This document shows positions 34,395-37,783 of a stretch of 64,000 nucleotides of DNA, one piece after another (the stretch's first letter is position 1; each line of letters begins with the position of its first letter). The notes beneath the pieces were generated by a model. That model was not told the DNA's origin. It was given only the letters and a program-made list of their open reading frames with translations, and made no database searches. Origin of the DNA: Mesorhizobium loti (GTDB lineage: Bacteria > Pseudomonadota > Alphaproteobacteria > Rhizobiales > Rhizobiaceae); NCBI GenBank assembly GCA_002356515.1, contig AP017605.1, positions 7,177,020 to 7,241,019 of the forward strand, given 5' to 3'. Position numbers and translations under genes: made by a program.

Positions 34395-34433
34395 GACGTC
34401 ATATCAGGTAAGGCAATCATCGTGACTGTTCGC

Positions 34434-34778
34434 TTAGCCCGCTGACCTCGGGCACTTGCGCGCTCGCGCAGCCGCAATGGCATCCTGCTGCTGTTTCAGC
34501 CGCTCGATCCTGGCTGTTTCGCGGTTGGCCACCGCGGTTTTCACACGCGAGCCACCAAGCAGCCACCGCGGAACACTGGTGTTGGCGACCTTGCCGCGCG
34601 TGATCGCGGTTTGCGAGATTTCGCCGGCGTTTTGACCCAGCGCGCTGTTGAGCTCGGTACAGCTCATGCTGTCGTACTTCGCCGGATCGGCCGTCCTGCC
34701 GATCGACGAGCAGCCGGTAACCAGAAACAGCGCTATGACAAGAGCGGGTGCCGAGGCTGTCGTTGAAATTAAATTCAT
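34434..34778 (-). CDS. Small putative outer-membrane lipoprotein
   Basis: The 114-residue product begins with a lipoprotein signal peptide (MNLISTTASAPALVIALFLV) and a lipobox ending in Cys23 (LVTGC). The mature part has two cysteines, SMSCTELNSALGQNAGEIS and an Arg/Gln-rich helix near the C-terminus. Similar small rhizobial lipoproteins have no known function. Longer in-frame starts would place the signal sequence internally, so ATG 34778 is chosen. It is convergent with oppDF. Confidence 0.65.
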   Translation of the reverse strand: MNLISTTASAPALVIALFLVTGCSSIGRTADPAKYDSMSCTELNSALGQNAGEISQTAITRGKVANTSVPRWLLGGSRVKTAVANRETARIERLKQQQDAIAAARARKCPRSAG

Positions 34779-35095
34779 GTCCACATCCGGCTCGCCAGTT
34801 TCACCGGCTTCATCATATCCACCGAACCATCTGGAGCCGACGATTATTTCGTCAACGATGCGCTCGCGACGGAACCTGTGGCCGCCTGAACACAAGGTTT
34901 CCAGCCTATATGGGAACGTTCTCGGCCACTCGAAGTTGGTATCCGTCGAGTGTCTAAATGCAATCACTGGAAACGGAGAGAGTCGTCTCGGTTGATGCCG
35001 GGGCGGCTTTTCGTCACCTAGGGACGCACTTTCGGCGGCTTAAATTGGTTGTGGCAACCTGCCTCGTCCCGCGCCTTTTATCCAGTCTCGAATTC
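34779..35095. other. Intergenic region with an orphan EcfG-like promoter
   Basis: About 317 bp between two minus-strand genes. Plus-strand frames here run antisense into the next gene and have no family features, so I call no CDS. The stretch contains a GGAAC-N16-AGTT match on the plus strand at 34913-34937 (listed separately). Confidence 0.4.
34913..34937 (+). promoter_or_regulatory. Orphan EcfG-like promoter (GGAAC-N16-AGTT)
   Basis: GGAAC (34913-34917) and AGTT (34934-34937) are separated by 16 bp, matching the general-stress sigma pattern GGAAC-N16-17-CGTT except for one base. No convincing gene follows on the plus strand; a transcript from here would run antisense to the 35096-35524 gene. 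Confidence 0.35.
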
Positions 35096-35524
35096 TCATG
35101 CTGCTTCGGCGATGAATGCGGTGGGAGTGCAACCGCCGAGTACTGCTTGGACGATGTCGGTTGCATTTTCATCAACATGCGCCGTCACCAAGACGATCCC
35201 GTCGGCAACGCTCCGATCATCTGGCGTTGCCGGAGTGGTGATGAATGCGCCGAGAAACCCGCCGGCACAGACCGCACAAACCAGTGCTGTTGCCGGTAGT
35301 CCTGCGGGAATAGGACTGACGCCGCAAACGGCCATGGCGCTCAGGCAGGCCAATGCCGCACCGACCGTACCAAGGACGACACTCGGGGACCTCAGAACTG
35401 TGACTTCGTCCCGGTAGGGCCCGATAAAGGCAATCTGAACGCGAGGAACACCGACCGCCACCAACTCTCCAGCAACCCGGGCTGCTTCAGCATGGGAATC
35501 AAAAAGCTTGCTGATTGTCCGCAT
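35096..35524 (-). CDS. Hypothetical membrane protein with general-stress-protein-like N-terminus
   Basis: The 142-residue protein begins MRTISKLFDSHAEAARVAGE, a fold start seen in small YflT/general-stress 17M-like proteins. It continues with two Gly/Ala-rich hydrophobic segments (about 48-72 and 78-97) and a soluble C-terminal part (GIVLVTAHVDENATDIVQA). It starts 4 bp after the stop of the 75-residue gene, so the two are probably one operon read from the EcfG-like promoter at 35797-35821. No enzymatic motif is visible. Confidence 0.6.
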   Translation of the reverse strand: MRTISKLFDSHAEAARVAGELVAVGVPRVQIAFIGPYRDEVTVLRSPSVVLGTVGAALACLSAMAVCGVSPIPAGLPATALVCAVCAGGFLGAFITTPATPDDRSVADGIVLVTAHVDENATDIVQAVLGGCTPTAFIAEAA

Positions 35525-35528
35525 GGTC

Positions 35529-35756
35529 TCAGGGCGTTTTCTTGTCGAGCAACGTGTTGGTAACGAAGGACGCGGCGATTAAATCGTCATGGTCAATGCT
35601 GCCCCGTCCGTCCTCCATCATGGCCGCGACCCTTTGGAAGGTCTTCATTTCGCTCATGGTAATTCTGGCATGCTGCATTCTGGTCCTAAGGTCCGCTACG
35701 CGCGTTCCCAAGGCATCGGATCTTATGGCCTCAATGTTAGACATGGTGACGTTCAT
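35529..35756 (-). CDS. Small hypothetical protein, first gene of a stress-type operon
   Basis: The 75-residue product (MNVTMSNIEAIRSDALGTR...) is soluble, mostly helical by composition, with SEMKTFQRVAAMMEDGRGS in the centre; I do not recognise the family. An alternative start is ATG 35744 (MSNIEA). A GGAAC-N16-TGTT site lies about 40 bp upstream on the same strand. The downstream 142-residue gene is 4 bp away. Confidence 0.55.
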   Translation of the reverse strand: MNVTMSNIEAIRSDALGTRVADLRTRMQHARITMSEMKTFQRVAAMMEDGRGSIDHDDLIAASFVTNTLLDKKTP

Positions 35757-35796
35757 CCACTTCCGCTCATGTAATTATCTTCGGGTCCAGCAACCG

Positions 35797-35821
35797 AACA
35801 GGGCCGCAGCACAAACGTTCC
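35797..35821 (-). promoter_or_regulatory. EcfG-like promoter of the 35756-35096 operon
   Basis: Read on the minus strand, GGAAC (35821-35817), 16 bp, then TGTT (35800-35797). This differs from the EcfG consensus CGTT by one base. A start site about 8 nt further on would give a leader of roughly 30 nt before ATG 35756. Confidence 0.5.
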
Positions 35822-35899
35822 CGGGCTGGGCTTCGGTCTGGTGGATCCCAGACTTTAGTCTGGCCGCAAAATGCAATGGTCTTACCTATGGTGCTGTTC

Positions 35900-35924
35900 G
35901 GAACGGCCACTGTTCGTAGCCGTT
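35900..35924 (+). promoter_or_regulatory. EcfG (general stress sigma) promoter, exact consensus
   Basis: GGAAC (35900-35904), exactly 16 bp, then CGTT (35921-35924): a full match to the alphaproteobacterial EcfG consensus GGAAC-N16-17-CGTT. The expected start near 35932 leaves a leader of about 20 nt carrying AGGAGGAA before ATG 35951 of the 30-residue micro-protein. Confidence 0.7.
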
Positions 35925-35950
35925 GTCCACCGCACGTCAGGAGGAAGTTG

Positions 35951-36043
35951 ATGGACAAGAGTGTTGGCCAGGCGCGCTGGTTGCTCGCACTGATCTTCGC
36001 TGTGGCCATCACTTTCATGGCGATTGGAATGACCCATGGCTGA
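35951..36043 (+). CDS. 30-residue single-pass membrane micro-protein
   Basis: A 30-codon frame encodes MDKSVGQARW followed by one transmembrane helix (LLALIFAVAITFMAIGM) ending in THG. It has a near-perfect Shine-Dalgarno (AGGAGGA, about 6 bases before the ATG) and an exact EcfG-type promoter 27 bp upstream of the start. The combination of promoter, ribosome site and a clean membrane helix makes it unlikely to be chance. Function is unknown; small stress-induced membrane peptides of this kind are often missed in annotation. Confidence 0.65.
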   Translation: MDKSVGQARWLLALIFAVAITFMAIGMTHG

Positions 36044-36108
36044 CCATCGGAAAGATCGAGCACGAATGTTTTGCAGATCGGCGCAGCTACGTCCCTTCCT
36101 GCGCTGAT

Positions 36109-36146
36109 AGGGTTCGCTCGCCGCGCCCGTGTGGCGAGCGAACCCT
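36109..36146. terminator. Strong 14-bp hairpin between convergent small genes
   Basis: AGGGTTCGCTCGCC (36109-36122) and GGCGAGCGAACCCT (36133-36146) form a perfect 14-bp stem with a 10-base loop. It lies between the micro-protein gene (plus) and the His-rich gene (minus), 66 and 94 bp from their stops. No long T-run follows on either side; it probably acts as a shared terminator or 3'-end stabiliser. Confidence 0.55.
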
Positions 36147-36239
36147 AAATATCAATGGGTCGTTGACGTGTGAGTGCGGGCCCACTCCAAAAATCTTGCA
36201 GGCAGGCCCGGCTACAAAGAGCCGAGCCTTCGGCGTCGA

Positions 36240-36521
36240 TCAATAGCCGTTGTTTTCGATCACCACGGAGCGATGGTGATGGTGCCTGGAGACGGCGCCC
36301 GTGACGATGACGGTATCCGGCCGATGGTGCCGGCGGCCGTGATCGTAGAACGCGACGGTGCCGTGGTGACGATGATGCAGACGCTGGCCGTCCTCGTTGA
36401 TGATCTTGACGTTGCTGTGGTGACGATGGTGGGTCTTGATGATGACGTCGGTCTGGGCCGCCGAAGCGATAGCCGGCAATCCGACGGAAAGCGCCAAAGC
36501 GCATATGATCATTGATTTCAT
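36240..36521 (-). CDS. Secreted histidine-rich small protein
   Basis: The 93-residue precursor has a signal peptide (MKSMIICALALSVGLPAIASA, cleavage near residue 21). The mature part of about 72 residues contains 15 histidines in clusters THHRHH, LHHRHH, RRHH and RHHHHR. Such clusters usually bind Ni, Zn or Cu in the periplasm. GGAGA precedes ATG 36521 by about 7 bases, and a GGAAC-N16-AGTT site lies 40-64 bp upstream. Metal storage or buffering under stress is an inference; no enzyme motif is present. Confidence 0.7.
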   Translation of the reverse strand: MKSMIICALALSVGLPAIASAAQTDVIIKTHHRHHSNVKIINEDGQRLHHRHHGTVAFYDHGRRHHRPDTVIVTGAVSRHHHHRSVVIENNGY

Positions 36522-36560
36522 TGCAATTTCTCCACTATCTTGATTTGCCCTTCGCTGGAT

Positions 36561-36585
36561 AACTGCCGCTGGCCCCTTTGGTTCC
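36561..36585 (-). promoter_or_regulatory. EcfG-like promoter of the His-rich protein gene
   Basis: On the minus strand GGAAC (36585-36581), 16 bp, then AGTT (36564-36561), one base off the EcfG consensus. The predicted start gives a leader of about 30 nt before ATG 36521. Confidence 0.5.
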
Positions 36586-36645
36586 GGACTGTCCCAGGAC
36601 AGTCTCGGAGGCCTCCGGAAAGTCGAAGGACGGGCTATGGCTTCG

Positions 36646-36954
36646 CTAAGGCTGAGAAGGGGCAGCCTCTCGCTGACGGTACTTGCAAAGAACGAAGTGG
36701 CTCGATGCATCGGTCGTGCCCGCATCGGGGAACACGACGATCTGTGCCCAAAAATCGCAATATCGGGCTATCGTTTCCGGCACCTCTTTGGCGCTCATGC
36801 CGGAGATAGTGGCGACATCGCCGTCTCTACAGTTGGTCTTTCCGGACAGCTGGGCTGACGCCGCCACGATTTCGCATGACCGCTCGTTGTCCGCGTGGGA
36901 GGGAGCGCAATGGCAGGCAAGCGCAAATGCTGCTGTGAGAACCAGTTTTTCCAT
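36646..36954 (-). CDS. Small secreted hypothetical protein
   Basis: The 102-residue product starts MEKLVLTAAFALACHCAPSHADN, a signal peptide with probable cleavage after SHA. The mature chain has four cysteines (RSCEIV, TNCRDG, ARYCDF, VLCKY) that could make two disulfides in the periplasm. The family is not recognised. Longer in-frame starts only add residues before the signal peptide. No EcfG-like site is present upstream, unlike its neighbours. Confidence 0.55.
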   Translation of the reverse strand: MEKLVLTAAFALACHCAPSHADNERSCEIVAASAQLSGKTNCRDGDVATISGMSAKEVPETIARYCDFWAQIVVFPDAGTTDASSHFVLCKYRQREAAPSQP

Positions 36955-37056
36955 GGCGGCTCCAGCCATCACCGGCAGTCCCTCAGGAGAGAGCATGCGC
37001 CATCGCTAATATAAAGGCAATTCAACAGGCCCTTTGCTCGATCTTGCTCATGCGAT

Positions 37057-37081
37057 GGAACATTAGGTGAGTCTAATTGTT
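37057..37081 (+). promoter_or_regulatory. EcfG-like promoter upstream of the 24-residue micro-protein
   Basis: GGAAC (37057-37061), 16 bp, then TGTT (37078-37081), one base off the consensus. The start codon at 37189 would be about 100 nt from the predicted transcription start, a longer leader than for the other sites in this cluster. Confidence 0.45.
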
Positions 37082-37188
37082 CTGTCCTCACAGCCGACGC
37101 CATCGGCAGAAGATCAGCCGGGCAAACGCTGATCGGCTCGCTTTTCTCACCAGAGGCGCGAGCTTTTCCAGGCAACAGGAGAAGGATC

Positions 37189-37263
37189 ATGAACAATATA
37201 ATTTGGCTCGTTGGAGCGGTGGTCATCGTACTAGTGATATTGAGCTTCTTCGGCCTGCGATAA
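37189..37263 (+). CDS. 24-residue single-pass membrane micro-protein
   Basis: The frame encodes MNNIIWLVGAVVIVLVILSF followed by FGLR, which is almost entirely one transmembrane helix with a polar start and a terminal Arg. A strong AGGAGAAGG ribosome-binding site ends a few bases before ATG 37189. It lies 15 bp before the next small gene, so the two may be co-translated. Very short hydrophobic proteins of this type recur in rhizobia, usually unannotated or hypothetical; the function is unknown. Confidence 0.62.
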   Translation: MNNIIWLVGAVVIVLVILSFFGLR

Positions 37264-37277
37264 GCTCGACGTCCGAT

Positions 37278-37538
37278 ATGCCTATGGACCCCTCATCGGA
37301 AGATGACCAGCCCAAGCGGACACTGCGAAAGCGCCGCAGGCTATCAGCCGAAGGCCGAAACGATGGCAGGGAGTTCGTCGCCCCTTTTCCACCTGAAGAC
37401 AGGAGCTTCCGCGTCTGGTTCCTGTCCAATGAAACAGGCATCAGCGTCGACCAGGCCAGCGAACTTGTCGACAGGATCGATACGGATGGCGCGGCGTTGT
37501 TGAACGCCGCGCGACGGATGAAAATTCATGTGCAATGA
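37278..37538 (+). CDS. Small hypothetical protein, DUF3606-like C-terminus
   Basis: The 86-residue protein has a basic, charged N-terminal half (QPKRTLRKRRRLSAEGR) and a C-terminal RVWFLSNETGISVDQASEL segment resembling DUF3606-type small proteins. It starts 15 bp after the micro-protein stop and has a weak ribosome site, so translation is probably coupled to it. The assignment to DUF3606 is tentative. An upstream in-frame extension would overlap the micro-protein gene. Confidence 0.5.
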   Translation: MPMDPSSEDDQPKRTLRKRRRLSAEGRNDGREFVAPFPPEDRSFRVWFLSNETGISVDQASELVDRIDTDGAALLNAARRMKIHVQ

Positions 37539-37706
37539 CTGATAAACTGCAGCCGGTTACGTCGTCTGCGTTTTCAACAGCCCACTTTGCAGTGCGTTGG
37601 CGACAAAGGGAAGGGCTGCGCCAAGACGGCCGCTCATCTCGCCATATTTTCAAGTGTGATATCAGTTTAAGCGCCAAAGTCGGGATGCGCTAACACGTTG
37701 TTTTTC

Positions 37707-37783
37707 TGGTCGGAGTGGCAGGATTTGAACCTGCGACCCCCTCGTCCCGAACGAGGTGCGCTACCAGGCTGCGCTACACTCCG
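37707..37783 (-). tRNA. tRNA-Pro(CGG)
   Basis: A 77-nt cloverleaf on the minus strand. The acceptor stem CGGAGTG pairs with CACTCCG, the anticodon loop TTCGGGA has anticodon CGG, the T-arm holds GGTTCAAATCC, and the CCA end is encoded (37709-37707). The discriminator base is A. Confidence 0.97.

Follow-up and report, generated by a model that had tools for sequence, protein, structure and literature searches.

What are five near-identical promoter-like sites doing within about 2.2 kb of small genes in Mesorhizobium loti? The sites lie in a 64,000-nt stretch of this genome (contig AP017605.1 of assembly GCA_002356515.1, positions 7,177,020 to 7,241,019 of the forward strand), hereafter the window, in whose coordinates all features are given. 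The general role of EcfG regulons in Alphaproteobacteria is the general stress response: under stress PhyR sequesters NepR, freeing the sigma factor EcfG, whose consensus promoter has GGAAC at −35 and (C)GTT at −10 with 16–17 nt between them. An earlier note, made from the sequence alone, had read the cluster as a general-stress regulon island. We find the island to be real and most probably a cluster belonging to the EcfG regulon, with EcfG dependence inferred from promoter sequence and conservation. Specifically, it is probably a conserved Mesorhizobium cluster of EcfG-read general-stress units with two RNA outputs and, at its fifth site, a dual device.

First, the sites are far too many for so short a segment. 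All five proposed GGAAC-N16-NGTT sites, here called S1 to S5, were recovered on the proposed strands (Table 1), and an exact CGTT at −10 occurs at 35900 only, in line with the single exact match claimed. Against the 5 sites between 34913 and 37081, 2,000 dinucleotide shuffles gave a mean of 0.06 and a maximum of 3, bearing out the excess that the earlier note had put against about 0.1 expected; in the window as a whole there are 8, where 100 shuffles put the expectation at 1.05 and gave at most 5. When all GGAAC-to-GTT gaps of 5–39 nt were scanned, the 17-nt gap occurred 8 times in the window and 5 times in 34400–37700, and every other gap at most 4 times and once, respectively. The three window sites outside the cluster look unrelated to it: 51898(+) and 28298(+) are antisense inside open reading frames (ORFs) of 460 and 165 amino acids (aa), and 56435(−) lies 168 nt ahead of a 480-aa ORF. 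Four of the five island sites do stand upstream of small genes on the correct strand, with distances to the start codon of 40 nt (75-aa gene), 26 nt (30-aa), 39 nt (His-rich) and 107 nt (24-aa); the 34913 site, as the note had implied, has no gene behind it.

Second, the sites are conserved at orthologous positions, one of the outcomes on which the earlier note had staked its reading. Comparison loci were chosen by good match to the 142-aa protein of the island, so that genomes without this gene lie outside the counts: 29 loci (the best 30 of 96 matching genomes, minus our own) plus 9 named ones (together L005–L042), less 7 duplicates, gave 31 non-redundant loci at 54–95% identity to that protein. 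Exact sites stand at fixed places in 14 to 28 of these loci (Table 1), with S5 undercounted because 22 loci hold about 1,500 nt beyond the gene start and some end before it; S2 and S3 of L019, displaced by an insertion, were left out of the counts. Across the 31 loci (165,745 bases), GGAAC-Nk-GTT occurs 113 times at k = 17 and at most 15 times at any other k of 8–29. All 9 named loci with a relative of the 142-aa protein, M. huakuii NBRC 15243 (L034) among them, belong to Mesorhizobium, and the amino-acid sequences of the 24-aa, 30-aa and 75-aa proteins are conserved. The description as a cluster of small genes stands in this respect; it had missed an RNA behind S1 and a palindrome and structured leader at S5. 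In L019, where the S2 promoter is displaced from the 142-aa gene, this promoter is immediately followed by a 99-aa ORF, secreted as judged by eye.

Third, the genome (8.45 Mb, 4 contigs) encodes the machinery that would read such sites. NepR (PF18557), an EcfG-type sigma factor (a sigma-70 r2/r4 protein adjoining NepR) and PhyR (PF22233 with a receiver domain) are encoded at C1:3524–3526 kb, 3.7 Mb from the island at C1:7212–7214 kb. If the mechanism of the family carries over, stress would cause PhyR to sequester NepR and free EcfG, and EcfG polymerase would then read all five promoters: S1 would yield a terminated small RNA of about 70 nt, S2 the 75/142-aa operon, S3 the 30-aa membrane micro-protein, S4 the His-rich periplasmic protein and S5 the 24-aa membrane micro-protein. 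Like the EcfG/RpoE2 regulons of Alphaproteobacteria, the island has GGAAC at −35 and (C)GTT at −10 at 16–17 nt in a genome encoding PhyR, NepR and EcfG; unlike them, it packs five units into 2.2 kb at a distance from the core locus, and one of its promoters carries a palindrome in the spacer. The RpoE2 regulon of Sinorhizobium meliloti, in the portion of the source available, likewise contains many targets of unknown function and small RNAs; sigma-E2 motifs are present at 23 small RNAs there, and for eight such regions array data support transcription that depends on rpoE2 (PMC3616915). The island offers a well-delimited Mesorhizobium general-stress promoter set that is testable as one piece of DNA. 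Elsewhere in the same genome, ten exact GGAAC-N16/17-CGTT sites occur in about 9 kb around nepR, ecfG, phyR and an HWE histidine kinase gene (L001, G000:C1:3514000-3530000); this run is the core general-stress locus. Another ten sites, of the GGAAC-N16/17-NGTT form, occur in about 10 kb at L002 (G000:C1:1556000-1570000), including one S5-type promoter at L002:4932(−).

Table 1. Features of the island, in window coordinates; conservation of sites is given as exact matches among the 31 orthologous loci
Feature	Position	Strand	Remarks
S1, EcfG-type promoter site GGAAC-N16-AGTT of the small RNA	34913..34937	+	exact in 14/31
Conserved small RNA, about 70 nt (predicted)	34943..35015	+	terminator hairpin about 34980-35012; covariance models R1, R3
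142-aa protein, second gene of S2 operon	35096..35524	-	nothing in Pfam or NCBIfam at cut-off
75-aa protein, first gene of S2 operon	35529..35756	-	relatives have 68-87 aa; no Pfam match
S2, EcfG-type promoter site of the 75/142-aa operon	35797..35821	-	exact in 28/31
S3, EcfG-type promoter site with exact CGTT, of the 30-aa protein	35900..35924	+	exact in 28/31
30-aa membrane micro-protein	35951..36043	+	recognisable in 24/32 loci, own included, by a script taking the first ORF with a ribosome site; the other loci may still hold the gene
93-aa His-rich protein	36240..36521	-	signal peptide by eye
S4, EcfG-type promoter site of the His-rich protein	36561..36585	-	exact in 25/31
S5, EcfG-type promoter site with a palindrome as its 16-nt spacer	37057..37081	+	exact in 19/31
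Palindrome ATTAG-N6-CTAAT in the S5 spacer, putative operator	37062..37077	+	matches quoted NolR consensus
Structured RNA, three hairpins, third terminator-like	37084..37173	+	15/29 pairs changed on both sides (43 members)
24-aa membrane micro-protein	37189..37263	+	16 relatives (3 cut by locus end); nearly invariant
86-aa ORF behind the 24-aa gene	37278..37538	+	no family match

The most elaborate unit is S5, which is followed by a structured RNA. Its relatives were gathered with R2, a sequence-only model built from the untrimmed alignment, which was kept because, holding no structure, it does not favour the structure counted later. R2 found the RNA in 88 of 146 genomes of the genus at E 1e-7, with up to 10 copies per genome, and in none of 292 genomes of other genera at E 1e-6. 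Among 43 members, chosen by hand from inspected copies, 95.1% of cells pair, and changes on both sides of a pair number 109 cells against 37.5 in shuffles, none of 500 of which reached 109. The promoter travels with the RNA. Forty copies were taken from below the 30 best R2 matches, with own-genome and some other copies skipped; removal of four that lie at the 24-aa gene or less than 2 kb from a 142-aa-like gene (L165, L166, L187 and L192) left 36 off-island copies, and 22 of these (19 of 31 distinct RNAs) have an exact site directly upstream. In a wider survey of 77 copies (the 40, 7 from our own genome and the 30 best matches), 75 have at least a degenerate promoter that departs at no more than 4 of 14 bases, and the two exceptions, L065 and L185, lack one. 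The S5 transcript would begin with the three-hairpin RNA, either as a small RNA of its own or as a leader read through into the 24-aa gene. The promoter also occurs without the RNA, ahead of small proteins of 25 and 43 aa (L047, L247, L251); at L047 and L247 the product is 25 aa long and related to the 24-aa membrane protein.

Neither the S1 nor the S5 RNA has an Rfam match at gathering score (window region and ten S5-type or related loci), giving two RNA families without an Rfam counterpart. One S5-type copy, L048, aligns over the full model of Atu_C7 (RF02501), a small RNA of Rhizobiales, at 20.6 bits, but this lies far below the gathering score of 45 and is equalled by the unrelated sX13 (22.1, cut-off 50), and at the window copy Atu_C7 gave no match. 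In one genome, an S1 RNA copy (L104) and an S5-type RNA copy lie less than 240 bp apart on opposite strands (G134:C1:3569363-3569598).

The spacer of S5 sets this promoter apart. Genome-wide, the palindrome occurs 10 times and its reversed control once; GGAACATTAG-N6-CTAA-NNGTT, with up to one mismatch, occurs 9 times and its reversed control not at all. Among S5-type copies the halves are conserved and the central six bases variable, and a dimeric regulator bound there should block polymerase, given that the palindrome fills the spacer. Of the ten genomic palindromes (L203–L212), S5-type promoters hold two and a degenerate promoter of this type (L211) holds a third; the other seven lie elsewhere, those at L204 and L207 directly before an ATG.

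Which regulator might bind there? A possible answer, which we put forward tentatively and on sequence grounds, is that the palindrome is an operator of NolR, an ArsR-family symbiosis regulator that would repress a subset of EcfG promoters and so join stress and symbiotic control. The sequence at 37062–37077 fits the consensus (A/T)TTAG-N9-A(T/A) as quoted in passages of PMC12445080 and PMC8960804, and the genome encodes a protein (L216, at G000:C1:2528142) whose best solved relative is NolR (4omy, E 1.6e-26; next HlyU, 1.9e-17). With a stricter form, (A/T)TTAG-N8-GA(T/A)G, the agreement is partial: the window copy reads AATT and fails it, and some relatives fit (CTGATG half, for example L133). 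Further points stand against NolR. The published consensus is loose, with 308 sites in S. meliloti according to the part of PMC12445080 available, and the NolR homologue itself has no ATTAG-N6-CTAAT palindrome before it at up to two mismatches. Outside the genus the S5-type promoter is at background (4 matches, one mismatch allowed, in 292 genomes against 5 for the reversed control), whereas NolR is described, in the passages available, from Sinorhizobium and Rhizobium (PMC9957244). The Sinorhizobium operators, as far as PMC12445080 presents them in the available text, share with S5 the ATTAG half-site and the spacing; S5 differs in that its palindrome is complete and occupies precisely the spacer between the elements of an EcfG-type promoter. 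A search for autoregulation as a means of naming the regulator was set aside: 20 of 32 ArsR-type domain matches were checked upstream, and only L218 has a palindrome-like sequence, with two mismatches.

If the palindrome is an operator, how a rhizobium joins the general stress response and a second signal at one promoter becomes directly testable. A broader proposal, which we consider doubtful, is that Mesorhizobium has a sub-branch of the stress response in which EcfG promoters with a palindromic operator in the spacer, possibly that of NolR, drive a genus-specific, multi-copy three-hairpin RNA ahead of micro-proteins; if true, single promoters would integrate stress with symbiotic state, and their output would be an undescribed RNA family. 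A literature search without most subscription journals, and hence weak evidence, had among its listed matches no publication that describes the island and none that links NolR with EcfG; one review covers NolR and the 'general stress response', and its available passages treat them apart (PMC9957244).

It is unlikely that S5-type promoters are instead read by a different or additional sigma factor, with ATTAG and CTAA part of its recognition sequence and the degenerate copies behind TTGAC being sigma-70 promoters. TTGAC does stand directly before the site in 10 of 14 inexact copies against 6 of 26 exact ones, where a sigma-70 promoter could be overlaid or substituted. The window copy and the 30 best-scoring copies, however, have no TTGAC at that place, the palindrome halves are symmetric about a variable centre, and seven of the ten genomic palindromes lie outside S5-type promoters, with an eighth in a degenerate one. 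Copies with TTGAC in this position include L168, L176, L181, L190, L193, L198 and L201.

At S1, read as an EcfG-type promoter with an RNA product, the transcript is predicted to start 6–8 nt past the −10. Identity among 15 relatives is 0.53 upstream, 0.90 in the promoter, 0.84 over 34944–35014 and 0.42 downstream, so the conserved unit extends from the −35 through the terminator and not past it. Small insertions and deletions among relatives argue that the RNA stretch is not coding. Its fold (34944–35018) has a z of −3.2, and the 3′ half is a terminator, a strong hairpin with a short T-run. Model R1, built from the RNA alone with the promoter left out, matched 32 of 146 genomes of the genus, our own included, under strict filters. 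Fifteen of the listed matches lie away from the island; seven of these have an exact site 30–31 nt upstream (L096, L097, L098, L100, L101, L252 and L255) and two a site one base off (L104 and L253). Two more matches, L094 and L095, lie inside the same island lacking the 75/142-aa operon and were excluded from the off-island count, and at L256 and L257 the RNA sits in an island with the S1, S4 and S5 sites and without S2 and S3. Beyond the genus, the broader model R3 gave no convincing member: 23 of 297 family genomes matched, 4 of them of the same genus, and 22 inspected matches in other genera had no exact site within 60 nt upstream and looked like plain terminators. The four next-best matches inspected in our own genome, candidate paralogues, were likewise terminators.

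The alternative that S1 is a promoter without a product, with the downstream conservation only the terminator of a neighbouring unit, has in its favour the hairpin and T-run of the 3′ half and the plain terminators among weak model matches elsewhere. We judge it very improbable: the 5′ 40 nt before the hairpin are conserved at least as well as the hairpin (0.88 versus 0.80), and they recur together with the promoter at other places. The S1 RNA would most likely act in trans on messenger RNAs through this conserved 5′ part and a purine-rich linker that it carries.

EcfG-dependent small RNAs are already known, and what is new here is the RNA outputs and the palindrome promoter. In the available text of PMC5869019, GsrN is such an RNA in Caulobacter, and GsrN-like RNAs are proposed in Rhizobiaceae; the S1 RNA resembles them in being a small RNA behind an EcfG promoter. 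It differs from them in that its 5′ half lacks a C tract, whereas GsrN-like RNAs have an exposed C-rich 5′ loop (for Rhizobiaceae, a figure legend of that paper calls the loop G-rich and the text cytosine-rich). Nor does it lie close to ecfG-nepR-phyR, the rule outside Caulobacteraceae in that text: the core is at C1:3524–3526 kb and the S1 RNA at 7212 kb. A further difference is that no convincing relative of it was found outside Mesorhizobium among the family genomes searched. A survey of M. huakuii reports 40 candidates whose coordinates, in the part of the source available, could not be mapped to the present loci for comparison with the S1 RNA (PMC5596092).

A number of observations weigh against reading the island as EcfG-controlled units with two RNA outputs. 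Four of the five sites have A or T in place of the C of CGTT, and S1 is exact in fewer than half of the loci. The exact consensus GGAAC-N16/17-CGTT is not enriched across the genome, with 143 sites where the reversed control has 234; this count was dropped as evidence, and it is clustering at this locus together with conservation, not motif number, that carries the case. Among off-island copies, 14 of the 36 S5-type RNAs lack an exact site, with the TTGAC bias described above; for the S1 RNA, 4 of 15 have no site and look like plain terminators (L106, L107, L108 and L254) and 2 were not inspected for one. Some island copies have lost or weakened the S1 promoter (L092, L099, L102, L103, L105 and L109). 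Compensatory change in the S1 RNA is weak, with 3 pairs, a number reached by 19 of 500 shuffles, which makes its 5′ fold uncertain, and the structure behind the change count of the S5 RNA was derived from the same alignment. That the five sites are a chance cluster, as the lack of genome-wide enrichment might suggest, is nevertheless virtually excluded, being refuted by the local expectation of 0.06 sites, the exact matches at fixed places in orthologous loci and the unique k = 17 spacing.

Around these units, the 86-aa ORF is possibly co-transcribed with the 24-aa gene. A further palindrome, GACTGTCC-CA-GGACAGTC, lies directly upstream of S4 (36587–36604), and a tRNA gene (Rfam tRNA, 66.5 bits) at 37710–37783 (−) lies at the island's right edge.

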